Source: Chloroflexota bacterium
GTDB taxonomy: Bacteria; Chloroflexota; Limnocylindria; Limnocylindrales; CSP1-4
Assembly (NCBI GenBank): GCA_003158675.1
Contig: PMKN01000057.1
Location: forward strand, 1 to 54,169
DNA: 54,169 nt
Direction: 5' to 3'
Shown: positions 6,018 through 26,429 of the stretch, piece after piece
Layout: the number at the start of each line of letters is the position of its first letter
Position numbering within the stretch: the stretch's first letter is position 1
Position numbers and translations under genes: made by a program
The notes under the pieces: generated by a model
Databases searched by the model: none
What the model saw: only the letters and a program-made list of their open reading frames with translations
Told to the model about the DNA's origin: nothing

Positions 6018-6137
6018 GGTGGCCGCTCCCGCTGGCTGAAATATCATCTGGCGCCGGTACCTCCGCTGGCCGTGGCCGAAGAGGACTGCTCCGTGCCATT
6101 CCAAACCCCGTGTTCCGGAATCTGTTACTCAGAATAA

Positions 6138-17549: not shown

Positions 17550-17646
17550 CGGGCTCCTCCGGCGCCTTGCGGAGCGCGCCGGTCTCTTCCAGCGATGGTG
17601 GGCGCGCTTCCGAGGGATGGCCAAGGGACATGCGGCCCGTTCGCGG

Positions 17647-17779: not shown

Positions 17780-19366
17780 GTGTCCGCTCGGAATTCCGCC
17801 TCCAAGCCAGGCCCGGCGTCCCCCGTGGCCCACGACTCCTCCGGCTTGCTGGGCCTGCGCGATATGGCCCAGGCGCTCGACGCGTGGCAGCACGAGCCGA
17901 ACGCGGCCAGCCACGGGCTCTTGAGCGAGGCCTTCGGAGGAGTGGTCGTGAGTGCCGGCCTCGGCGGCGGCTCCATCCATATCACGGCGCCGCCGCTCGC
18001 CGAGGTGGAACTGCGAGCCGGAAGCATGCTCGACGCTGAGGCCGAGACGGCTGGTCTGCGCAAGTACGACCTTCAGTTCGGCGACCGCCAGGTCGCGAGT
18101 TTGGCGCTGGATGCGCCGCCCGCGGCCGTCTTCTCCGTGGACGAATGCGCCCGCGGCCTCGAGATCGTCATCGGCGCCGCCTGGTCGGAGGCACGCGCAG
18201 GCCAGGCCGCCGGCGAACTGGCAGCCATCGACGTCGCAACCCGCGGCATCGCCGGTGTACTCGACCTGGACCGCGTCCTGCAGCTGATCACCGACCGCGT
18301 TCGCGAACTGGCCCACGCTCAATACGCCGCGCTTGGGATCGCCGACCAGGAAGGCGGAATCGAGCGCTTCATCACCAGCGGTGTCGGGCGGGCGGAGCGC
18401 GAGCGAATCGGCCAGCCACCGCATGGCCACGGTCTGCTGGGCGTCATCATGGCGTCAAGCCGTCCCATTCGCGTCCACGACATCGGCAGGGACTCGCGCC
18501 GGTACGGCTTTCCGGCCCACCACCCTCCGATGCACTCACTTCTCGGGGTCCCGGTCGGAGCCCGAGGCCGCTCCATCGGGCGGCTGTATCTGACCAACAA
18601 GCAACCCTGGGGCGACTTCACCGAGGACGACGAGCGGTTGGTCGAGATGTTCGCCCTCCACGCCGGTATCGCCATCGAGAACGCCCGCTTGCACGAGCAG
18701 GTCCAGCGCCTGGCAATAGTGGAAGAGCGCGAGCGGATCGGTCGCGACCTGCACGATGGCATCATCCAGAGCATCTACGCCGTTGGTCTTTCGCTCGAGG
18801 ATGTTCCCGAGCTGATGGCGGACGAGCCAGAAGTGGCCCGCGCCCGTGTTGAGCGCGCCATCGACTCGCTCGACCAGTCGATCCGCGACATCCGCAACTT
18901 CATCTTTGGCCTGCGGCCGGAGCTGCTCGAACAGGCCGGCCTGATAGGCGGCCTGGCCGCCCTGGCGGACGAATTCAGGGTCAACAGCATGGTCGACATC
19001 GACATCGAGACACTGGACGTCAGTGAGATAGACCTGCCGCCCGATCAAACTGGTCAGCTACTCGCGATTGCCCGGGAGGCCTTGAGCAATATCGCTCGCC
19101 ACTCCAAGGCCACCCGTGGCAGCGTCAGAGTCGAGGACGTCGAGGGCAAGCTGCGGCTGATCGTAAGCGACAACGGCGTTGGGTTCGACGCCGATCGGCA
19201 GCGCGGCCCAAGCCATCAGGGCCTGGTGAACATGCGCGCCCGGGCCTCCGAAGTTGGTGCGGCCTTCGAACTTCAGAGCGCGCCGGGCGCCGGCACGCGT
19301 ATTATCGTGGAGGTGGCGCGGCGCGAAACCTCGAACGCCGACGCCGGCCAGGTAGGAGACGAATGA
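17780..19366 (+). CDS. GAF-domain sensor histidine kinase, DevS/DosT-like
   Basis: A 528-residue NarL-family kinase starting with GTG. Residues about 20-150 are a divergent domain; about 160-315 is a GAF domain containing YGFPAHHPPMHSLLGVPVG and LYLTNKQPWGDFTEDDE, very like the GAF domains of mycobacterial DevS/DosT. The HisKA_3 helix has EERERIGRDLHDGIIQS with phospho-acceptor H325, and the ATPase domain has LLAIAREALSNIARHSKA and DNGVGFD. No membrane segments, so cytoplasmic. It should phosphorylate the regulator encoded next (four-base overlap). Whether the GAF holds haem (candidate His247/His248) and senses O2, NO or CO is inference. Confidence 0.88.
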   Translation: MSARNSASKPGPASPVAHDSSGLLGLRDMAQALDAWQHEPNAASHGLLSEAFGGVVVSAGLGGGSIHITAPPLAEVELRAGSMLDAEAETAGLRKYDLQFGDRQVASLALDAPPAAVFSVDECARGLEIVIGAAWSEARAGQAAGELAAIDVATRGIAGVLDLDRVLQLITDRVRELAHAQYAALGIADQEGGIERFITSGVGRAERERIGQPPHGHGLLGVIMASSRPIRVHDIGRDSRRYGFPAHHPPMHSLLGVPVGARGRSIGRLYLTNKQPWGDFTEDDERLVEMFALHAGIAIENARLHEQVQRLAIVEERERIGRDLHDGIIQSIYAVGLSLEDVPELMADEPEVARARVERAIDSLDQSIRDIRNFIFGLRPELLEQAGLIGGLAALADEFRVNSMVDIDIETLDVSEIDLPPDQTGQLLAIAREALSNIARHSKATRGSVRVEDVEGKLRLIVSDNGVGFDADRQRGPSHQGLVNMRARASEVGAAFELQSAPGAGTRIIVEVARRETSNADAGQVGDE

Positions 19367-20034
19367 CCGACCAGATCGAAGCACGCCCGCTGCGGCTGCT
19401 CGTGGTCGACGATCACGAGCTTGTGCGCCAGGGCCTTGTGTCGCTGCTCGACAGACGCGAGCATTTCCAGGTCGTCGCCGAAGCGGGTACGGCGGCCGAG
19501 GCTGTGGAGATGGCCCGCAAGTTCGAGCCGGATTTGGTGGTCATGGACGTGCGCCTGCCGGACGGCTCCGGTATCGAGGCGTGCCGCGAGATTCGCGCCG
19601 AATTCCCGGCCACGCGGGTGGTCATCCTGACCAGCTACCCGGACGAAGAAGCCGTTCTATCGGCCATCATCGCCGGCGCCTCCGGCTATCTGCTCAAGCA
19701 GATGCGCAGCCGGGATCTGGTCAGCGCTCTCGAATCCGTGGGACGAGGCGAATCGCTGCTCGATCCGGCGGTCACCGAGAAGGTGCTCGATCGCGTTCGC
19801 CGGATTGCCACGGGCACGTACACGGACGAGATGGCGCAGCTGACGCAGCAGGAGCAGAAGATCCTGCTGCTCGTGGCAGAAGGCAAGACGAACAAGGAGA
19901 TCGCCTCCGATGTCTTCCTGTCAGACAAGACGGTCAAGAACTACGTGAGCTCGATCCTCTCGAAACTGAATTTGGAGAGACGAGCTCAGGCGGCCGCCTT
20001 CGTAGCGCGTCACCGCCTCAAGGGCGGCGCGTAA
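19363..20034 (+). CDS. NarL/DevR-like response regulator
   Basis: A 223-residue regulator. Receiver: acidic pair D16-D17 in LLVVDDHE, phospho-acceptor D62 in LVVMDVRLPDGSG, T90 in VVILTSYPDEE, K112 in YLLKQM. C-terminal LuxR-type HTH (about 150-215): LTQQEQKILLLVAEGKTNKE, then SDKTVKNYVSSILSKLNL and ERRAQAAAF, closely resembling DevR/DosR. It would bind DNA as a dimer on phosphorylation by the adjacent kinase. Its receiver resembles the one fused to PFOR at 21979, with matching residue positions at the N-terminus. Confidence 0.92.
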   Translation: MTDQIEARPLRLLVVDDHELVRQGLVSLLDRREHFQVVAEAGTAAEAVEMARKFEPDLVVMDVRLPDGSGIEACREIRAEFPATRVVILTSYPDEEAVLSAIIAGASGYLLKQMRSRDLVSALESVGRGESLLDPAVTEKVLDRVRRIATGTYTDEMAQLTQQEQKILLLVAEGKTNKEIASDVFLSDKTVKNYVSSILSKLNLERRAQAAAFVARHRLKGGA

Positions 20035-20143: not shown

Positions 20144-20259
20144 CCCTCAGGTTCTCGACGGTCTCTGCCAGCCAGCCCCCGATCGCCCGGATACCGTCGA
20201 CTTCCGGCGGCCGGCTTTGTCATAGCTCGTTGGTGAGCGTTCGGCCCAAACGGCCCTCG

Positions 20260-20296
20260 CGCATAGCGACGCGCCCATTAAACTCCGCGCTATGCG
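20260..20296 (+). promoter_or_regulatory. Inverted repeat covering the CoA-transferase start codon
   Basis: CGCATAGCG at 20260-20268 is the exact complement of CGCTATGCG at 20288-20296, whose ATG is the start codon at 20292. In mRNA a 9-base-pair stem with a 19-base loop would hide the start; as DNA it could be a repressor site. No good Shine-Dalgarno sequence is visible before this ATG. Confidence 0.5.
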
Positions 20297-21563
20297 AATC
20301 GTCAGCGCCCAAGAGGCGGTTTCAGGTATCAAGTCAGGCCAGCAGATCTTCATGCACGCCGCCGCGGCCACGCCGGAAGTATTACTCGAGGCTCTGGTGG
20401 CCCGCGCTCCGGAGCTCGAGGACGTGAAGATCGTCCATATGCACGCGGAGGGTCCACATCCGCACCTTGCCCCGGACATGGTGGGTCACTTCCGCCACAA
20501 GGCTCTCTTCATCGGCCCGAACGCACGCAAGGCGATCAACGAAGGCCGGGCGGAGTTCATCCCTGTCTTCTTGTCAGACATTCCCGTCTTGATCGAGAAG
20601 AAGTACCTGCCGCTGGATGCCGTCCTGTGTAACGTCAGCCCGCCCGACGAACACGGCTTCTGCTCGCTGGGCACTTCTGTCGACGCGATGCTCGCCGCGG
20701 TGCGGAACGCCAGGACGGTCATAGTCCAGTTCAACAGGAGCATGCCTCGGACGCTGGGCGACAGCTTCATCCACGTCGATCGGATCGACTATGCCGTCGA
20801 GGTCGACCAGCCGCCCTACGACCACTCCAGCGGCGAGCCCGACGAAGTTGAGTCTCGGATCGGGGAATTCGTCGCGGAGCTCGTGGCCGACGAGGCCACG
20901 CTGCAGATGGGCATCGGCGCGATCCCGAGCGCGGTGGGCAGGAAGCTCTACGACAAGAAGAACCTCGGCGTTCACACAGAGATGTTCACCGACATCCTGG
21001 TCGATCTCGTCGAGCGCGGCGTCGTGACCTGCACGGCCAAGGAGGTCAACTGCGGCAAGGTCGTGACCTCCTTCATGATGGGCACGCAGCGCCTCTACAG
21101 ATTCGTCGACAACAACCCGATGGTCGAGATGCGGCCGGTCGACTACACCAACGACACCTCGATCATCCGGCGATTCAAGCGCATGACCGCCATCAACTCC
21201 GCGATCGAGGTGGATCTAACCGGGCAGGTGTGTGCCGACTCGATCGGACACCGCATGTATAGCGGCGTGGGCGGTCAGATGGACTTCATGCGGGGCGCCG
21301 CCCTCGCCGAGGAAGGTAGGGCAATCATCGCTCTGCCGTCCACTGCCGCCGGCGGAACGATCTCGCGGATCACCATCGCGCTCAAGGAAGGCGCCGGCGT
21401 CACCACGACGCGTTCGCACGTGCGCACCGTGGTGACCGAGTACGGCGTCGCGGAGTTGTTCGGCCAGAGCCTCCGGGAGCGGGCGCGGCAACTCATATCG
21501 ATCGCTCACCCGGACTTCCGCGACGAGCTGACGGCCTACGCTCGGAAGCACCACGACCTGTAG
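20292..21563 (+). CDS. 4-hydroxybutyrate/acetate CoA-transferase (acetyl-CoA hydrolase family)
   Basis: A 423-residue class I family protein of the AbfT/Cat2 type. Motifs: N-terminal FMHAAAATPEVLLEALVARA, SPPDEHGFCSLGTSVDA, GIGAIPSAV, the catalytic glutamate E230 in LGVHTEMFTD, and C-terminal SGVGGQMDFMRGAALAEEGR with EYGVAELFGQSLRERARQL. It would transfer CoA between acetyl-CoA and 4-hydroxybutyrate or another short acid; acetate-forming acetyl-CoA use is also possible and would suit the PFOR operon immediately downstream. No 4-hydroxybutyrate dehydrogenase or dehydratase gene lies in the window. Confidence 0.87.
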   Translation: MRIVSAQEAVSGIKSGQQIFMHAAAATPEVLLEALVARAPELEDVKIVHMHAEGPHPHLAPDMVGHFRHKALFIGPNARKAINEGRAEFIPVFLSDIPVLIEKKYLPLDAVLCNVSPPDEHGFCSLGTSVDAMLAAVRNARTVIVQFNRSMPRTLGDSFIHVDRIDYAVEVDQPPYDHSSGEPDEVESRIGEFVAELVADEATLQMGIGAIPSAVGRKLYDKKNLGVHTEMFTDILVDLVERGVVTCTAKEVNCGKVVTSFMMGTQRLYRFVDNNPMVEMRPVDYTNDTSIIRRFKRMTAINSAIEVDLTGQVCADSIGHRMYSGVGGQMDFMRGAALAEEGRAIIALPSTAAGGTISRITIALKEGAGVTTTRSHVRTVVTEYGVAELFGQSLRERARQLISIAHPDFRDELTAYARKHHDL

Positions 21564-21663: not shown

Positions 21664-21904
21664 ACGACCGCAAGTCTCGGGGTTGCGGCCGCTCCATGCG
21701 CAGTGCCGAACGGCCCTCCGTATCAGGCAACTGGACCCCTCGCCGAGTCTGGCCCAATCCGTTTCAGGCGGCAGCCTGCGCGGCCGGCTGAGATCCCCGA
21801 ATCGGTCCGGCGGTTGCCCGCCAGATCTCGATCGGTCTCGGACCGCCACCGTGCGGCGCCCCCTCCTTTGGGCAGGCCGCTCCCAACCCGGCCCCTCCGC
21901 GTGC

Positions 21905-21918
21905 GGGCCATATGGCCC
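21905..21918. promoter_or_regulatory. Perfect palindrome upstream of the receiver-PFOR gene
   Basis: GGGCCATATGGCCC is a perfect 14-base palindrome 60 bases before the start codon. It agrees with the DevR-type core GGGACTWWAGTCCC at 10 of 14 positions and with the usp/kinase box at 10 of 14. Plausible binding site of a dimeric regulator; identity unproven. Confidence 0.35.
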
Positions 21919-21978: not shown

Positions 21979-24315
21979 ATGCTCGCCGATACCAATCTGC
22001 CTTTGCGTCGACTGCTCATCGTCAGTCAGCACCCCGCCGCAACCGAGGCCTTGTGCGATCACCTTTCGCGCCACGGCTTTGCGATCGTCGCCCAGGCGAC
22101 GTCCGCTGAGTCCGCGGCGCGAGATTGCGCTGCCTCCAACCCGGACGTGGTGCTGCTCGATGCGGACGTTCCAGGCGGATGGCGGCCGGTAGTAGCGGCA
22201 TTGCGCGACTGCATCCCCTCGGAGCGGATCGCCGTGCTCGCCTCCTACTGGCATGCGGACGAGCAGCGCGAGGCGGTCGCCAGCGGGATTGGCGGCACCC
22301 TGCTCAAGCACTTGGACGGAAGCGCGCTGGCCCGCCAGTTGCGCGCATTGGGTGAACCGACCATCGTGACGAATTCGCCGACTCCCGAGTTTCCAGGCAT
22401 CCCGGCCATCATCGACGGCTCGGAGGCCATCGCCCACGTCGAGTCGCGGATCAGCGACGGCGCCTGCGCCTACCCGATCACACCCTCGACGACTATGGCC
22501 GCGGTCTATCAGGTCGCAGTGGCCAACGGCACCCCGAACATCTGGGGTACGACTCTGAAGTTCATCGAGCCCGAGTCGGAGCATTCCTCCGCCTCAGCGG
22601 CCGAGGGTTTTGCCCTCGCCGGCGGTCGGGTCACGAACTTCACCGCCGGTCAGGGACTCATCCTCATGAAGGAAGTCCTGTACGTCATCGCCGGCAAGCG
22701 CCTGCCCGTGGTCTTCCACGTGGGCGCCCGCGCGCTGACCAGCCAGAGTCTGAACATCCATGCTGGCCACGACGACATGATGGGCGTCGCGGACTGCGGT
22801 TGGGGCATGTTCTTCTCCCGTAACTGCCAGGAAGCCGCCGACCTGACAGCGATCGCCCGACGCGTTGCCGAGGACGGCGAGACGCCGTGGTTCGTGGCGC
22901 AGGACGGGTTCCTGACGACCCACACCATAGAGAACGTCCAGCTGCCCGAGGACGAGTTGCTCAAGCGGTTCGTGGGCGATCCTCGGATCACGGTCCGCGA
23001 TCTGTTCGATCCCAAGGACGCTCTGATGACCGGCGTCGTCCAGAACCAGGACGCCTACATGAAGGGGCGCATCGCTCAGCGCGCCTGGTACGACCAGCTC
23101 GTCGACATCACCGAGCGCGCCATGGCCGAATGGACCGCCCTCACCGGACGCCCGTACGGCCTGATCCAGGCGTACAAGACCGAGGACGCCGACTACGTCA
23201 TGGTCTCGATGGGTACCATGGCGGACACGGCCCTCGCGGTCGTCGACCACCTCCGCGCCGCCGGCCGCAAGGTCGGCTGCATCACGGTTACCTGCTTCCG
23301 TCCGTTCCCCGCCAAGCAACTTGCCAAGGCTCTGGCCAACGCCAAGGTCGTGGCCGTCGTGGAGCGCACGGACGAGCCCGCCGCCGCGGACAACCCGCTG
23401 ACTCGAGAACTCAAGTCGGCCCTCGCCGATGCGGCGATGGACGGCGCCCGCCTGCCGCGTGTCGTGTCGGCCTCGGCCGGCCTCGGCTCGCGCGACATCC
23501 AGCCCGGCGATCTCGCGGCCGTCTTCGACTGGATCGCCGATGAGAAGGCCGTCGCAGCGCGGAAGCACGTCGTGCTCGGCATCCGCCACCCGCTCGCCCT
23601 GGCCAAGAGCGACGTCAACATCCGCCCCCGCGGCGCCTACAGCCTGCGCGGCCATTCGGTCGGCGGCTTCGGCTCGGTCACCACGAACAAACTCGTGGCA
23701 ACCACTGTTGGCCAGCTCTTCAACCTCTACGTGCAGGCCTATCCGCGCTACGGCTCCGAGAAGAAGGGTCTGCCCACGACCTACTTCCTGACCATCGCCG
23801 AGGAGCCGATCCGGCTCCACAACGAGCTGACGGAAGTGGACTTCGTGCCGCTCTTCGACACCAACTCGTTCAAGCAGGGCGATCCTCTCGCCGGTCTCGT
23901 GAACGGTGGCACGGTCTTCGTGCCAACGCCGCTCACCGATCCGGACGAGATCTGGGCCGCTCTCCCGCCGTCGACCCGGGCAGAAATCCTGGCTCGCAAG
24001 ATCCGGCTTCTTGCCCTGGACACGGCGGCGCTCGCCATGAAGTACGCACCACGCGCAGACCTCGAGATCCGTATGCAGGGCGTCGCCCTAGTCGGCGTCT
24101 TCCTGCGAGTCTCGCCCTTCGCCGAGCGTGCCGGTCTCGACCGGCCCGCCCTCATGGCGGCCGTGCGCGAAAACCTCACTCGCTTCTTCGGGAAGCGCGG
24201 CACATCCGTCGTCGACGCCAACCTGGCGGTTATCCAGGGCGCCTACGACGGTGTGATCGACGTCACGGCGTCGATCACTGCCAAAGTTGCCGCTCCTGCA
24301 GCGGCGTCGCGATGA
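21979..24315 (+). CDS. Receiver domain fused to pyruvate:ferredoxin oxidoreductase alpha/gamma chain
   Basis: A 778-residue protein. Residues about 10-125 form a NarL-type receiver domain: RRLLIVSQHP, phospho-acceptor candidate D61 in VVLLDADVPGG, LASYWHADEQ, and K110 in GGTLLKHLDG. The acidic pair is replaced by S16-Q17 and the conserved Thr by A88. Then follow PFOR domain I (about 150-370: GACAYPITPSTTMAAVYQVA, FTAGQGLILMKEVLYVIAGK, LNIHAGHDDMMG), domain II (about 395-490) and the gamma domain III (about 530-760: GAYSLRGHSVGGFGSVTTNK). Iron-sulphur and TPP halves are in the gene at 24729. The start ATG at 21979 is placed just before the receiver; its ribosome site is weak. Together the chains should interconvert pyruvate (or another 2-oxoacid) and acetyl-CoA with ferredoxin. 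Confidence 0.85.
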   Translation: MLADTNLPLRRLLIVSQHPAATEALCDHLSRHGFAIVAQATSAESAARDCAASNPDVVLLDADVPGGWRPVVAALRDCIPSERIAVLASYWHADEQREAVASGIGGTLLKHLDGSALARQLRALGEPTIVTNSPTPEFPGIPAIIDGSEAIAHVESRISDGACAYPITPSTTMAAVYQVAVANGTPNIWGTTLKFIEPESEHSSASAAEGFALAGGRVTNFTAGQGLILMKEVLYVIAGKRLPVVFHVGARALTSQSLNIHAGHDDMMGVADCGWGMFFSRNCQEAADLTAIARRVAEDGETPWFVAQDGFLTTHTIENVQLPEDELLKRFVGDPRITVRDLFDPKDALMTGVVQNQDAYMKGRIAQRAWYDQLVDITERAMAEWTALTGRPYGLIQAYKTEDADYVMVSMGTMADTALAVVDHLRAAGRKVGCITVTCFRPFPAKQLAKALANAKVVAVVERTDEPAAADNPLTRELKSALADAAMDGARLPRVVSASAGLGSRDIQPGDLAAVFDWIADEKAVAARKHVVLGIRHPLALAKSDVNIRPRGAYSLRGHSVGGFGSVTTNKLVATTVGQLFNLYVQAYPRYGSEKKGLPTTYFLTIAEEPIRLHNELTEVDFVPLFDTNSFKQGDPLAGLVNGGTVFVPTPLTDPDEIWAALPPSTRAEILARKIRLLALDTAALAMKYAPRADLEIRMQGVALVGVFLRVSPFAERAGLDRPALMAAVRENLTRFFGKRGTSVVDANLAVIQGAYDGVIDVTASITAKVAAPAAASR

Positions 24316-24707
24316 CCGAACCTCGCACGGTTGGGGATGTCATGACCCCCAACCCGGTCTCGGTCCCAGAGGCGGCCTCCCTCGCGGAAGCCGCCGGCCT
24401 GCTCGACAGCAGGCACATCTCCGGCCTGCCCGTCATCGACGCGAGCGGGTGTCTGGTCGGGGTTCTGAGTCAGATCGATCTCGTAAGGGCGCAGGCCAAC
24501 CCCCAGCTCCACGCGAACTGGCGCGGCCTCGCCGTCGGAGAAATCATGACAAAACCGGCGCTGACAATCCTTTCGACCGCTGGCCTGGACGAGGCCGCGC
24601 GGCTGATGGGAGAGCGCCGGGTCCACCGCCTGGTCGTAACGGACAAGGCGGCCACCCCGATCGGCATCATCTCGGCCAGCGACCTCGTCCGGTCCTGGTT
24701 GGGATAG
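24312..24707 (+). CDS. Tandem CBS-domain protein between the two PFOR chains
   Basis: A 131-residue protein made only of two CBS motifs: VGDVMTPNPVSVPEAASLAE with SGLPVIDASGCLVGVLSQID, and VGEIMTKPALTILSTAGLDE with HRLVVTDKAATPIGIISASD. CBS pairs bind adenine nucleotides or related ligands and usually regulate a partner. Its start overlaps the receiver-PFOR stop (ATGA) and the second PFOR chain begins 21 bases later, so all three are co-expressed. It resembles mycobacterial Hrp1 (a DosR-regulon CBS protein) in size and layout. A direct role as nucleotide sensor for PFOR is inference. Confidence 0.9.
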   Translation: MTEPRTVGDVMTPNPVSVPEAASLAEAAGLLDSRHISGLPVIDASGCLVGVLSQIDLVRAQANPQLHANWRGLAVGEIMTKPALTILSTAGLDEAARLMGERRVHRLVVTDKAATPIGIISASDLVRSWLG

Positions 24708-24728: not shown

Positions 24729-26429
24729 ATGACAGAGACGATTGCCACCCACAAGAACGGAAAGGGCCAGCTCGTAGGCTCGCTGGCCAACCTTGCCGCA
24801 GGTCCGGGGCTCATTGCCCCGCAGACCTTCGATCCCGATGCGTACATCAAAGACTTCAACACCACGGTCATTGATGCGTACCGGACCGGCGTTGCCGATG
24901 TCGAGCTGCCCGCCGACATGGGCGTAGGCCGAAGCATCATCGCCCCCGGAACGGCCGGCGTTCGCGACTTCAGCAGCCTGTCGCCGCTGATCCCGCAGTT
25001 CGTGGCGGACCAGTGCGTAGGCTGCATGGCCTGCGTCAGCGCCTGCCCCGACAGCGCCATCTTCGCCACTGCCCAGCCCAAGGCCGCGCTGGCCACGGCG
25101 ATCGACACGTTCGCCGCCTCCCAGCCGAACCCGGCGCTTGCCGGCGAGACGGCGAAGCAGCATTTCGTGCACACCACCAAGTACGGCGACGTGCCCGCCA
25201 AGCGTGGCATCGAAGCCGCGGACTTCGGGCTGTTTATCGATCCCTACCACTGCAAGGGCTGCGCCGAGTGCGTGGACGTCTGCGTGGCTCAGGGCCACAA
25301 CGCTCTGGTCATGGCGGAGAAGAGCGACTGCGAGTCGAGCGGCGAGTGCACGCTCGATCGCTACCGCCGCGACATCGCCTTCTACAAGAGCCTGCCCCCG
25401 ACGCCGGTTGAATACCGCAACGAGAAGGCCCTGGCCGACATCATGCTCGGCGAGCACGCCTTCGGCTTCGTGGGCGGCGGCGGCTCGTGCTCAGGCTGCG
25501 GCGAAGGCACTGCCGTCCGCATGGTCATGGCCGCGACTCTGCAGGTCCACGGCCCGGAGAGCATGGGCATCGTGGCCGAGACCGGCTGCAATACCGTTTT
25601 CGCGAGCACATATCCGTACAACCCGTTCACCGTTCCGTGGACCAACTCGCTCTTCGAGAACGGCCCGGCCGACGCCCTCGGCATTCGGCTGCGCTGGGAC
25701 CAGTCCGGTCATCCGGAGCGGCGGCTGTGGGTCTTCGGCGGCGACGGCGCCATGTACGACATCGGCTTCCAGTCGCTCTCGCGCCTGGTTGCCTCGGGCA
25801 TGGACATCAAGGTCCTAGTCCTCGATACCGGCGTCTACTCGAACACGGGTGGTCAGGCCTCCACGGCCTCGTTCACCGCCCAGGTTTCCAAGCTGGCCGC
25901 CTACGGCAAGGCCGAGCACGGCAAGCAGGAGAAGCGCAAGGAACTGGGTAGGATCCTGATGGCCCACGGCGATGCGTACATCGCCCAGGTTGCCGCCTGC
26001 AACATCAACCACTTCTACAAGGCAGTGATCGAGGCCAACGCCTATCCGGGCCCGGCCGTAGTCATCGCCTACACGCCCTGCATGCCGGAGCACGGCATTG
26101 CCGACGACGCGGCCAATCGCCAGGCCAAGCTCGCCGTCGAGTCGCGCGCCTTCCCGCTCTTCACCTACGATCCGCGCCGCGGCGACTCATATGCCGAGCG
26201 CCTCTCTCTCCAGGGCAACCCGGCGGTCAAGGAGGACTGGTCGAAGAACCCTGACGGGACCACCTTCGACTTCATCTCCTTCGCCCGCACGGAAGGCCGC
26301 TTCGGCCAGCATTTCGACAAGGAAGGCAATCCCTCTCCCGAGCTGCAGGCTTCTCAGGAAGACCGCCTCCATGACTGGCGGATCCTCCAGGAGATGGCCG
26401 GCGTGCTGCGGAGTCCGGCCGGCCATTAG
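24729..26429 (+). CDS. Pyruvate:ferredoxin oxidoreductase, ferredoxin plus TPP-binding chain
   Basis: A 566-residue protein corresponding to domains IV-VI of one-chain NifJ. Two 4Fe-4S motifs: CVGCMACVSACP (about 97-108) and CKGCAECVDVC (about 175-185). The TPP domain has CSGCGEG (C254, C257), ETGCNTVFASTYPYNPF, GDGAMYDIGFQSLSRL and DTGVYSNTGGQAS; with AYTPCMPEHGI these supply the four Cys of the proximal cluster found in PFOR. The order matches NifJ exactly, so the enzyme has been split at the III/IV boundary. A perfect hairpin terminator follows 55 bases after the stop. Confidence 0.92.
   Translation: MTETIATHKNGKGQLVGSLANLAAGPGLIAPQTFDPDAYIKDFNTTVIDAYRTGVADVELPADMGVGRSIIAPGTAGVRDFSSLSPLIPQFVADQCVGCMACVSACPDSAIFATAQPKAALATAIDTFAASQPNPALAGETAKQHFVHTTKYGDVPAKRGIEAADFGLFIDPYHCKGCAECVDVCVAQGHNALVMAEKSDCESSGECTLDRYRRDIAFYKSLPPTPVEYRNEKALADIMLGEHAFGFVGGGGSCSGCGEGTAVRMVMAATLQVHGPESMGIVAETGCNTVFASTYPYNPFTVPWTNSLFENGPADALGIRLRWDQSGHPERRLWVFGGDGAMYDIGFQSLSRLVASGMDIKVLVLDTGVYSNTGGQASTASFTAQVSKLAAYGKAEHGKQEKRKELGRILMAHGDAYIAQVAACNINHFYKAVIEANAYPGPAVVIAYTPCMPEHGIADDAANRQAKLAVESRAFPLFTYDPRRGDSYAERLSLQGNPAVKEDWSKNPDGTTFDFISFARTEGRFGQHFDKEGNPSPELQASQEDRLHDWRILQEMAGVLRSPAGH

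Follow-up and report, generated by a model that had tools for sequence, protein, structure and literature searches.

A degenerate receiver, a separate gene in sister genera, is joined to the low-oxygen enzyme PFOR in some uncultured Chloroflexota

Pseudo-receivers are defined in PMC12632262 as recognised receivers without at least one of five residues, and its abstract calls their switching mechanisms a mystery. CmrT of the CmrRST system, as presented in the same source, is a receiver without catalytic residues that is encoded beside a complete kinase-regulator pair. The receiver family described here shares this arrangement but differs from CmrT in being fused to, or adjoining, a metabolic enzyme and in having no output domain of its own. 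A second likeness is to the aspartate-less receiver joined to DsbA, in the account of PMC4395418, which is also a degenerate receiver on a redox enzyme domain; there the phospho-acceptor Asp is replaced, whereas here it is kept (Asp-61) and the enzyme is PFOR.

On the enzyme side, the closest described systems are the PFORs of Moorella (6cin) and Desulfovibrio africanus (1b0p), with which the present enzyme shares domains I, II, and III and a beta part with TPP and 4Fe-4S sites; unlike them, it is split into alpha and beta subunits with a CBS gene in between and carries an N-terminal receiver on alpha. NarL/DevR-type receivers (3eul; DesR, 5iuk; DevR, 3c3w) have the same fold as this receiver and are its nearest solved sequences, but the fused receiver lacks a DNA-binding domain and has lost the acid pair and the Thr. 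Literature searches, screened at the level of search results, returned no description of a receiver-PFOR fusion.

The fused gene and its neighbours

The window analysed here is a stretch of 54,169 nucleotides from a Chloroflexota bacterium (GCA_003158675.1, contig PMKN01000057.1, positions 1-54,169 of the forward strand; Limnocylindria; Limnocylindrales; CSP1-4). The features to which the text refers are as follows.

17780-19366, forward strand: GAF histidine kinase with HisKA_3 (Pfam)
19363-20034, forward strand: NarL/LuxR-type response regulator (Pfam; active-site alignment)
20292-21563, forward strand: acetyl-CoA hydrolase/transferase, conserved in the locus upstream of the receiver (Pfam; locus comparison)
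21905-21918, no strand assigned: conserved palindrome GGGCCATATGGCCC, probable operator, upstream of the fused gene (cross-genome comparison)
21979-24315, forward strand: receiver-PFOR alpha fusion gene, 778 open codons and then a stop (in-frame junction in 18 genomes)
22006-22353, forward strand: pseudo-receiver domain, residues 10-125, with S16, Q17, D61, A88, and K110 (Pfam, alignment, model)
22345-22371, forward strand: codons 123-131, lowest synonymous variety of the gene, surrounding GTG codon 130 at 22366-22368, a probable internal start for receiver-free PFOR alpha
22456-23124, forward strand: POR_N, PFOR domain I, residues 160-382 (Pfam, 190.8 bits; aligned with 6cin)
23188-23511, forward strand: PFOR_II, residues 404-511 (Pfam)
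23662-24249, forward strand: POR, PFOR domain III, residues 562-757 (Pfam)
24312-24707, forward strand: CBS-pair protein between the PFOR subunits (Pfam)
24729-26429, forward strand: PFOR beta, 4Fe-4S and TPP-binding (Pfam, TIGR02176 scores)

A preliminary description of this DNA had read a receiver and PFOR in one uninterrupted gene, and the Pfam search agrees with it: a single frame of 778 residues carries Response_reg, POR_N, PFOR_II, and POR. The Response_reg match (residues 13-120) had an E value of 4.8e-7 and a score of 30.4 bits, with the cut-off at 30.2, and the domain belongs to PF00072 in that it passes the curated score and matches the receiver fold; in the three relatives that were scanned, L115 scored above the cut-off (31.3 bits), and L126 (28.9 bits) and L147 (23.9 bits) scored below it. 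The receiver modelled alone (mean pLDDT 82.9) was most similar among solved structures to the NarL, DesR, and EutV receivers, with query TM-scores of 0.74-0.79 over the ten best rows. No match to GerE was found in the fused protein by Pfam, unlike in the neighbouring regulator, which places it outside the NarL/FixJ response regulator class.

Residues 144-763 can be aligned over their whole length with 6cin, of which they cover the first 613 residues (E 1.1e-81), and the model of the whole protein matches the PFORs of Moorella and D. africanus, with pLDDT below 50 at residues 127-133, a flexible linker, and at residues 197-266, which are poorly modelled. Domains I, II, and III together with the TPP/4Fe-4S partner identify the enzyme as a PFOR, and pyruvate is its predicted substrate. 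The cut-off of TIGR02176, which describes single-chain PFOR, was not reached (377 bits for alpha and 212 bits for beta against 911); the enzyme is split into alpha and beta. The 3' end of PFOR alpha overlaps with the CBS-pair gene, and beta comes after it, as in other genera of the family; the CBS-pair product is a possible nucleotide sensor of PFOR.

The active-site residues stand where the preliminary description had placed them, and its suspicion of a pseudo-receiver was borne out by the alignment, in which residues 16, 17, 61, 88, and 110 are S, Q, D, A, and K in 18/18 fused copies. The residue set of a phosphorylatable receiver (acid pair, Asp, Thr/Ser, Lys) is thus incomplete in the fused copies. 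Separate copies of the same receiver have D, D, and K at residues 17, 61, and 110 in 19/19 cases, with S (15) or G (4) at residue 16 and A (10), S (8), or E (1) at residue 88. The second acid of the pair, which contacts the metal directly according to the account of receiver chemistry in PMC12632262, has therefore been lost in the fused clade (D17 to Q). All copies, fused and separate alike, are pseudo-receivers as that source defines them because each is without at least one of the five residues. They are not aspartate-less receivers, given D61 in 18/18 fused and 19/19 separate copies. Asp-61 and Lys-110 are unchanging in all 37 receivers, and some phosphate chemistry could remain. Control of the fused form by phosphate from the neighbouring kinase is unlikely, and direct phospho-control of PFOR is not supported.

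Distribution and origin of the receiver

We compared 107 genomes of the family, 21 of them in the source genus (g1) and one in genus g18 (G063). The junction is in frame in 17/21 g1 genomes and in the one of g18, that is, in 18/18 genomes in which it is readable and PFOR is present, and the fusion-bearing records span several project names. Thirteen of the 17 g1 fusions are near full length, including that of G043, which stops at residue 741 among unread bases; in G037, G041, and G046, the frame breaks past the junction, inside PFOR, and the fusion of G048 is truncated at residue 500 by a contig end. The junction is unreadable in G042 and G050 because contigs end there, and no PFOR orthologue accompanies the receiver in G047 and G049. 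The matches of PFOR orthologues of other genera start at about residue 111-136. The preliminary description would have been contradicted by homologues that start near residue 140 beside a separate receiver gene; this arrangement was seen in other genera but not in the source genus.

A receiver profile (A1) built on 18 rows found the family in 40/126 genomes of the order at 114-203 bits, with the next listed receiver at 72.5 bits: g1 20/21, g18 1/1, g6 4/4, g11 6/6, g19 8/8, and g20 1/2. In a phylum sample, in which the best 10 candidates per genome were scored, it was found in 13/400 genomes, all of the same family. A one-genome-per-species scan over 84,980 species, which reaches only close relatives, gave 77 loci with a fused receiver in 17, all titled Chloroflexi; these loci overlap the 107-genome set and are not independent counts. 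Four other PFORs with long N-terminal frames (L079, L025, L029, and L031) gave no receiver match in Pfam (0/4).

The gene order at the locus is conserved. In 38/38 loci that show both genes (47 examined), the receiver lies 3' of the acetyl-CoA transferase and shares its strand, with a gap of 153-2956 bases (415 in the source locus); for the 15 readable separate copies, the gap is 153-386 bases in 12 and about 2.7 kb in 3. The kinase and the NarL-like regulator are upstream in the loci that extend far enough, and the regulator, which we take to be DosR/DevR-like, keeps its full active site in 22/22 rows.

The receiver is a separate gene at this same locus in 19 genomes of four genera besides the fused clade. 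Downstream of it lies a PFOR orthologue in G073 (g20), another 2-oxoacid oxidoreductase that replaces PFOR in g11 (6/6 loci, L116-L121; 30-32% identity to the source PFOR), and a universal stress protein in g19 (8/8 loci). In G073, 178 bases that include GGGCCAAATGGCCC separate the receiver from PFOR, and the two genes do not share a frame. These separate receivers are the nearest relatives of the fused one (43-55% identity). The preliminary description had seen a likeness between the fused receiver and the upstream regulator and had proposed capture of such a gene; identity to that regulator is only about 30%, and together with the gene order this rules capture out. The receiver tree also sides against capture, but on long branches (7.7 for the neighbouring regulator and 1.26 for the G073 receiver).

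Selection, an internal start candidate, and the promoter

Receiver and linker are under purifying selection, at a strength for the receiver like that on the enzyme domains: over 14 rows, the median dN/dS was 0.123 for the receiver (91 pairs) and 0.170 for the linker (90 pairs), compared with 0.097, 0.184, and 0.125 for PFOR domains I, II, and III (91 pairs). The receivers of G047 and G049 end at about residue 127, where PFOR would begin; a CBS gene directly follows the receiver in G049, and neither CBS nor beta is found there in G047. Both genomes are nested in the fused clade (98/96), G047 with L014 (99/91) and G049 without a fixed position, and both receivers retain S-Q at residues 16-17. 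Against 19 rows, their median receiver dN/dS was 0.080 (G047) and 0.067 (G049), on branches that partly predate the loss of PFOR. The receiver was kept where PFOR is gone and is therefore useful without this PFOR. The two losses have a similar junction and might be one event.

Codons 123-131 have the lowest synonymous variety of all 765 nine-codon windows in the gene (observed/expected 0.115), and 4/1000 gene-wide shuffles were as low (18 rows); in a set of 10 rows from which near copies had been thinned, they still ranked first of 758, but 85/1000 shuffles were as low. The constrained stretch spans -21 to +6 of GTG codon 130, which is kept in 18/18 genomes and lies near the start of separate PFORs, and the stretch is altered in G047 and G049. 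Codon 130 is probably an internal translation start that would give PFOR alpha without the receiver; we grade it as only probable because the ribosome-binding match before it is weak. Two other sources of the constraint were ruled out, namely an RNA hairpin (z 0.72) and a repeated DNA element, of which the genome has one exact copy and two with 3 mismatches. Synonymous variety is also low in another stretch, codons 90-99 (YWHADEQREA; 22246-22275).

The palindrome GGGCCNNNNGGCCC occurs in perfect form within 200 bases upstream of 31/38 receiver genes, and in 30 of these cases it lies at -68 to -89 (0.5% under a shuffle of two-base blocks, the null used throughout); the row of L022 is a contig-edge error, and L021 has its perfect copy at -197 and a copy with one mismatch at the usual place. 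A perfect copy also precedes 13/15 separate PFOR alpha rows (0.6%) and 4/22 transferase genes (0.6%). Nine or ten matches were found upstream of 12/22 transferase genes (12% expected), 4/6 kinase rows (11% expected), 1/16 regulators, and 0/16 PFOR beta genes. The case for a probable operator rests on this fixed place across genomes, and the neighbouring regulator may be what binds it. The fused gene and the separate G073 receiver, which lies just upstream of PFOR and has a promoter of its own, have similar promoters (GGGCCATATGGCCC, then TGTCGCTACG, in the former; GGGCCGAATGGCCC, then TGTCGCTACG, in the latter); the promoter of the G073 PFOR is unlike that of the fused gene.

Possible roles of the receiver

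The signs are that the receiver does a job of its own rather than phosphate switching on PFOR, a function read from sequence comparison. We tentatively favour an explanation in which the pseudo-receiver of the locus itself was joined to PFOR alpha and has a contact role in the kinase-regulator circuit, not that of a phosphate switch; the domain is kept both fused and alone. The pseudo-receiver gene would already have stood in the kinase/NarL-like regulator locus before the fusion. Because the fused promoter resembles that of the G073 receiver and not that of its PFOR, the fusion would most likely have come about when the stop codon of the receiver and the promoter of PFOR were lost together. 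In this reading, the domain would most likely act by protein contact, pairing with the receiver of the regulator or with the kinase, as it may have done when separate; section 19 of PMC12632262 discusses cases in which a pseudo-receiver may target the kinase or the regulator encoded in its own operon. Expressed from a promoter of the type that the circuit uses, the fused receiver could feed back in proportion to the PFOR made, and the internal GTG would probably also yield PFOR alpha without the receiver. A more specific version, which we offer as speculation that is rather unlikely to hold in full, is that part of the PFOR subunits carry a pseudo-receiver that docks on the kinase-regulator pair switching on its own gene and so reports PFOR abundance or state to a low-oxygen two-component system, with the dose set by the two start codons.

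Counting against a role in the circuit, the separate genes of g11 (6/6) and g20 adjoin a 2-oxoacid oxidoreductase, which fits a link to the enzyme. Because of this, some probability, if a low one, goes to the receiver being a direct regulatory domain that touches the alpha/beta assembly and alters activity or oligomer state on phosphate, a ligand, or a partner, and retention of the fusion in 18/18 readable PFOR-bearing genomes points the same way. However, both acids and the Thr are lost in the fused clade, G047 and G049 retain the receiver without PFOR, the g19 separate copies adjoin a stress protein, and PFOR is probably also made free of the receiver. Direct signal control of PFOR, as the preliminary description had it, is doubtful where phosphorylation is concerned, given the change of D17 to Q with A88, a receiver that outlives PFOR, and the probable receiver-free enzyme. 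A slightly smaller chance falls to a passenger fusion, in which neighbours ran together and the receiver keeps its fold and an old, small task while the joining has no function. Receiver and PFOR are indeed separate neighbours in G073, the linker is flexible in the model, and the internal start would fit, but the fusion is kept across two genera with no re-split among the 18 readable genomes that retain PFOR, and the loss of both acids is fixed in the fused clade.

That the receiver still takes phosphate, as a sink or slow switch, is improbable: D61 and K110 are in 37/37 receivers and separate copies keep D17, but acids are missing at both 16 and 17 in the fused copies, and the second of these positions is the direct metal ligand in the description given by PMC12632262. 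Least probable is a frameshift, start-call, or assembly artefact. GC-rich DNA yields long chance frames, this one stays open as far upstream as a GTG at 21703, and 3/18 fusions are broken within the PFOR part; against this, the in-frame junction in 18 genomes from several projects and the purifying selection on receiver and linker led us to reject it.

The family may be an example of a metabolic enzyme connected to the regulator that governs it. Within a single locus that has a full kinase-regulator pair, its members also form a natural series, from separate with one acid, to separate beside PFOR, to fused with no acid, to alone again after loss of PFOR, and this series makes the task of a pseudo-receiver testable.

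The palindrome pattern was not enriched genome-wide (21 sites against 22 for a reversed control), and with one mismatch it was found 11 times in the window against 10.8 expected; for the exact 14-mer with up to 3 mismatches, 9 sites were found and 3.5 expected. One-mismatch copies lie at 17625-17638, between the stress-protein and kinase genes, and at 20243-20256, before the transferase gene. On another contig of the same genome (C68, locus L158), GGGCCGAATGGCCC, the form that precedes the separate receivers of other genera, occurs at 1681-1694 and 6082-6095. One site stands 73 bases ahead of a frame that encodes an ETF domain; ETF alpha, which carries ferredoxin domains, comes next, along with an iron-sulphur CCG protein. 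The other site is 56 bases before a cyclic-nucleotide-binding frame, followed by an NAD-binding iron-sulphur protein; the genes at both sites are possible further members of a low-oxygen regulon.
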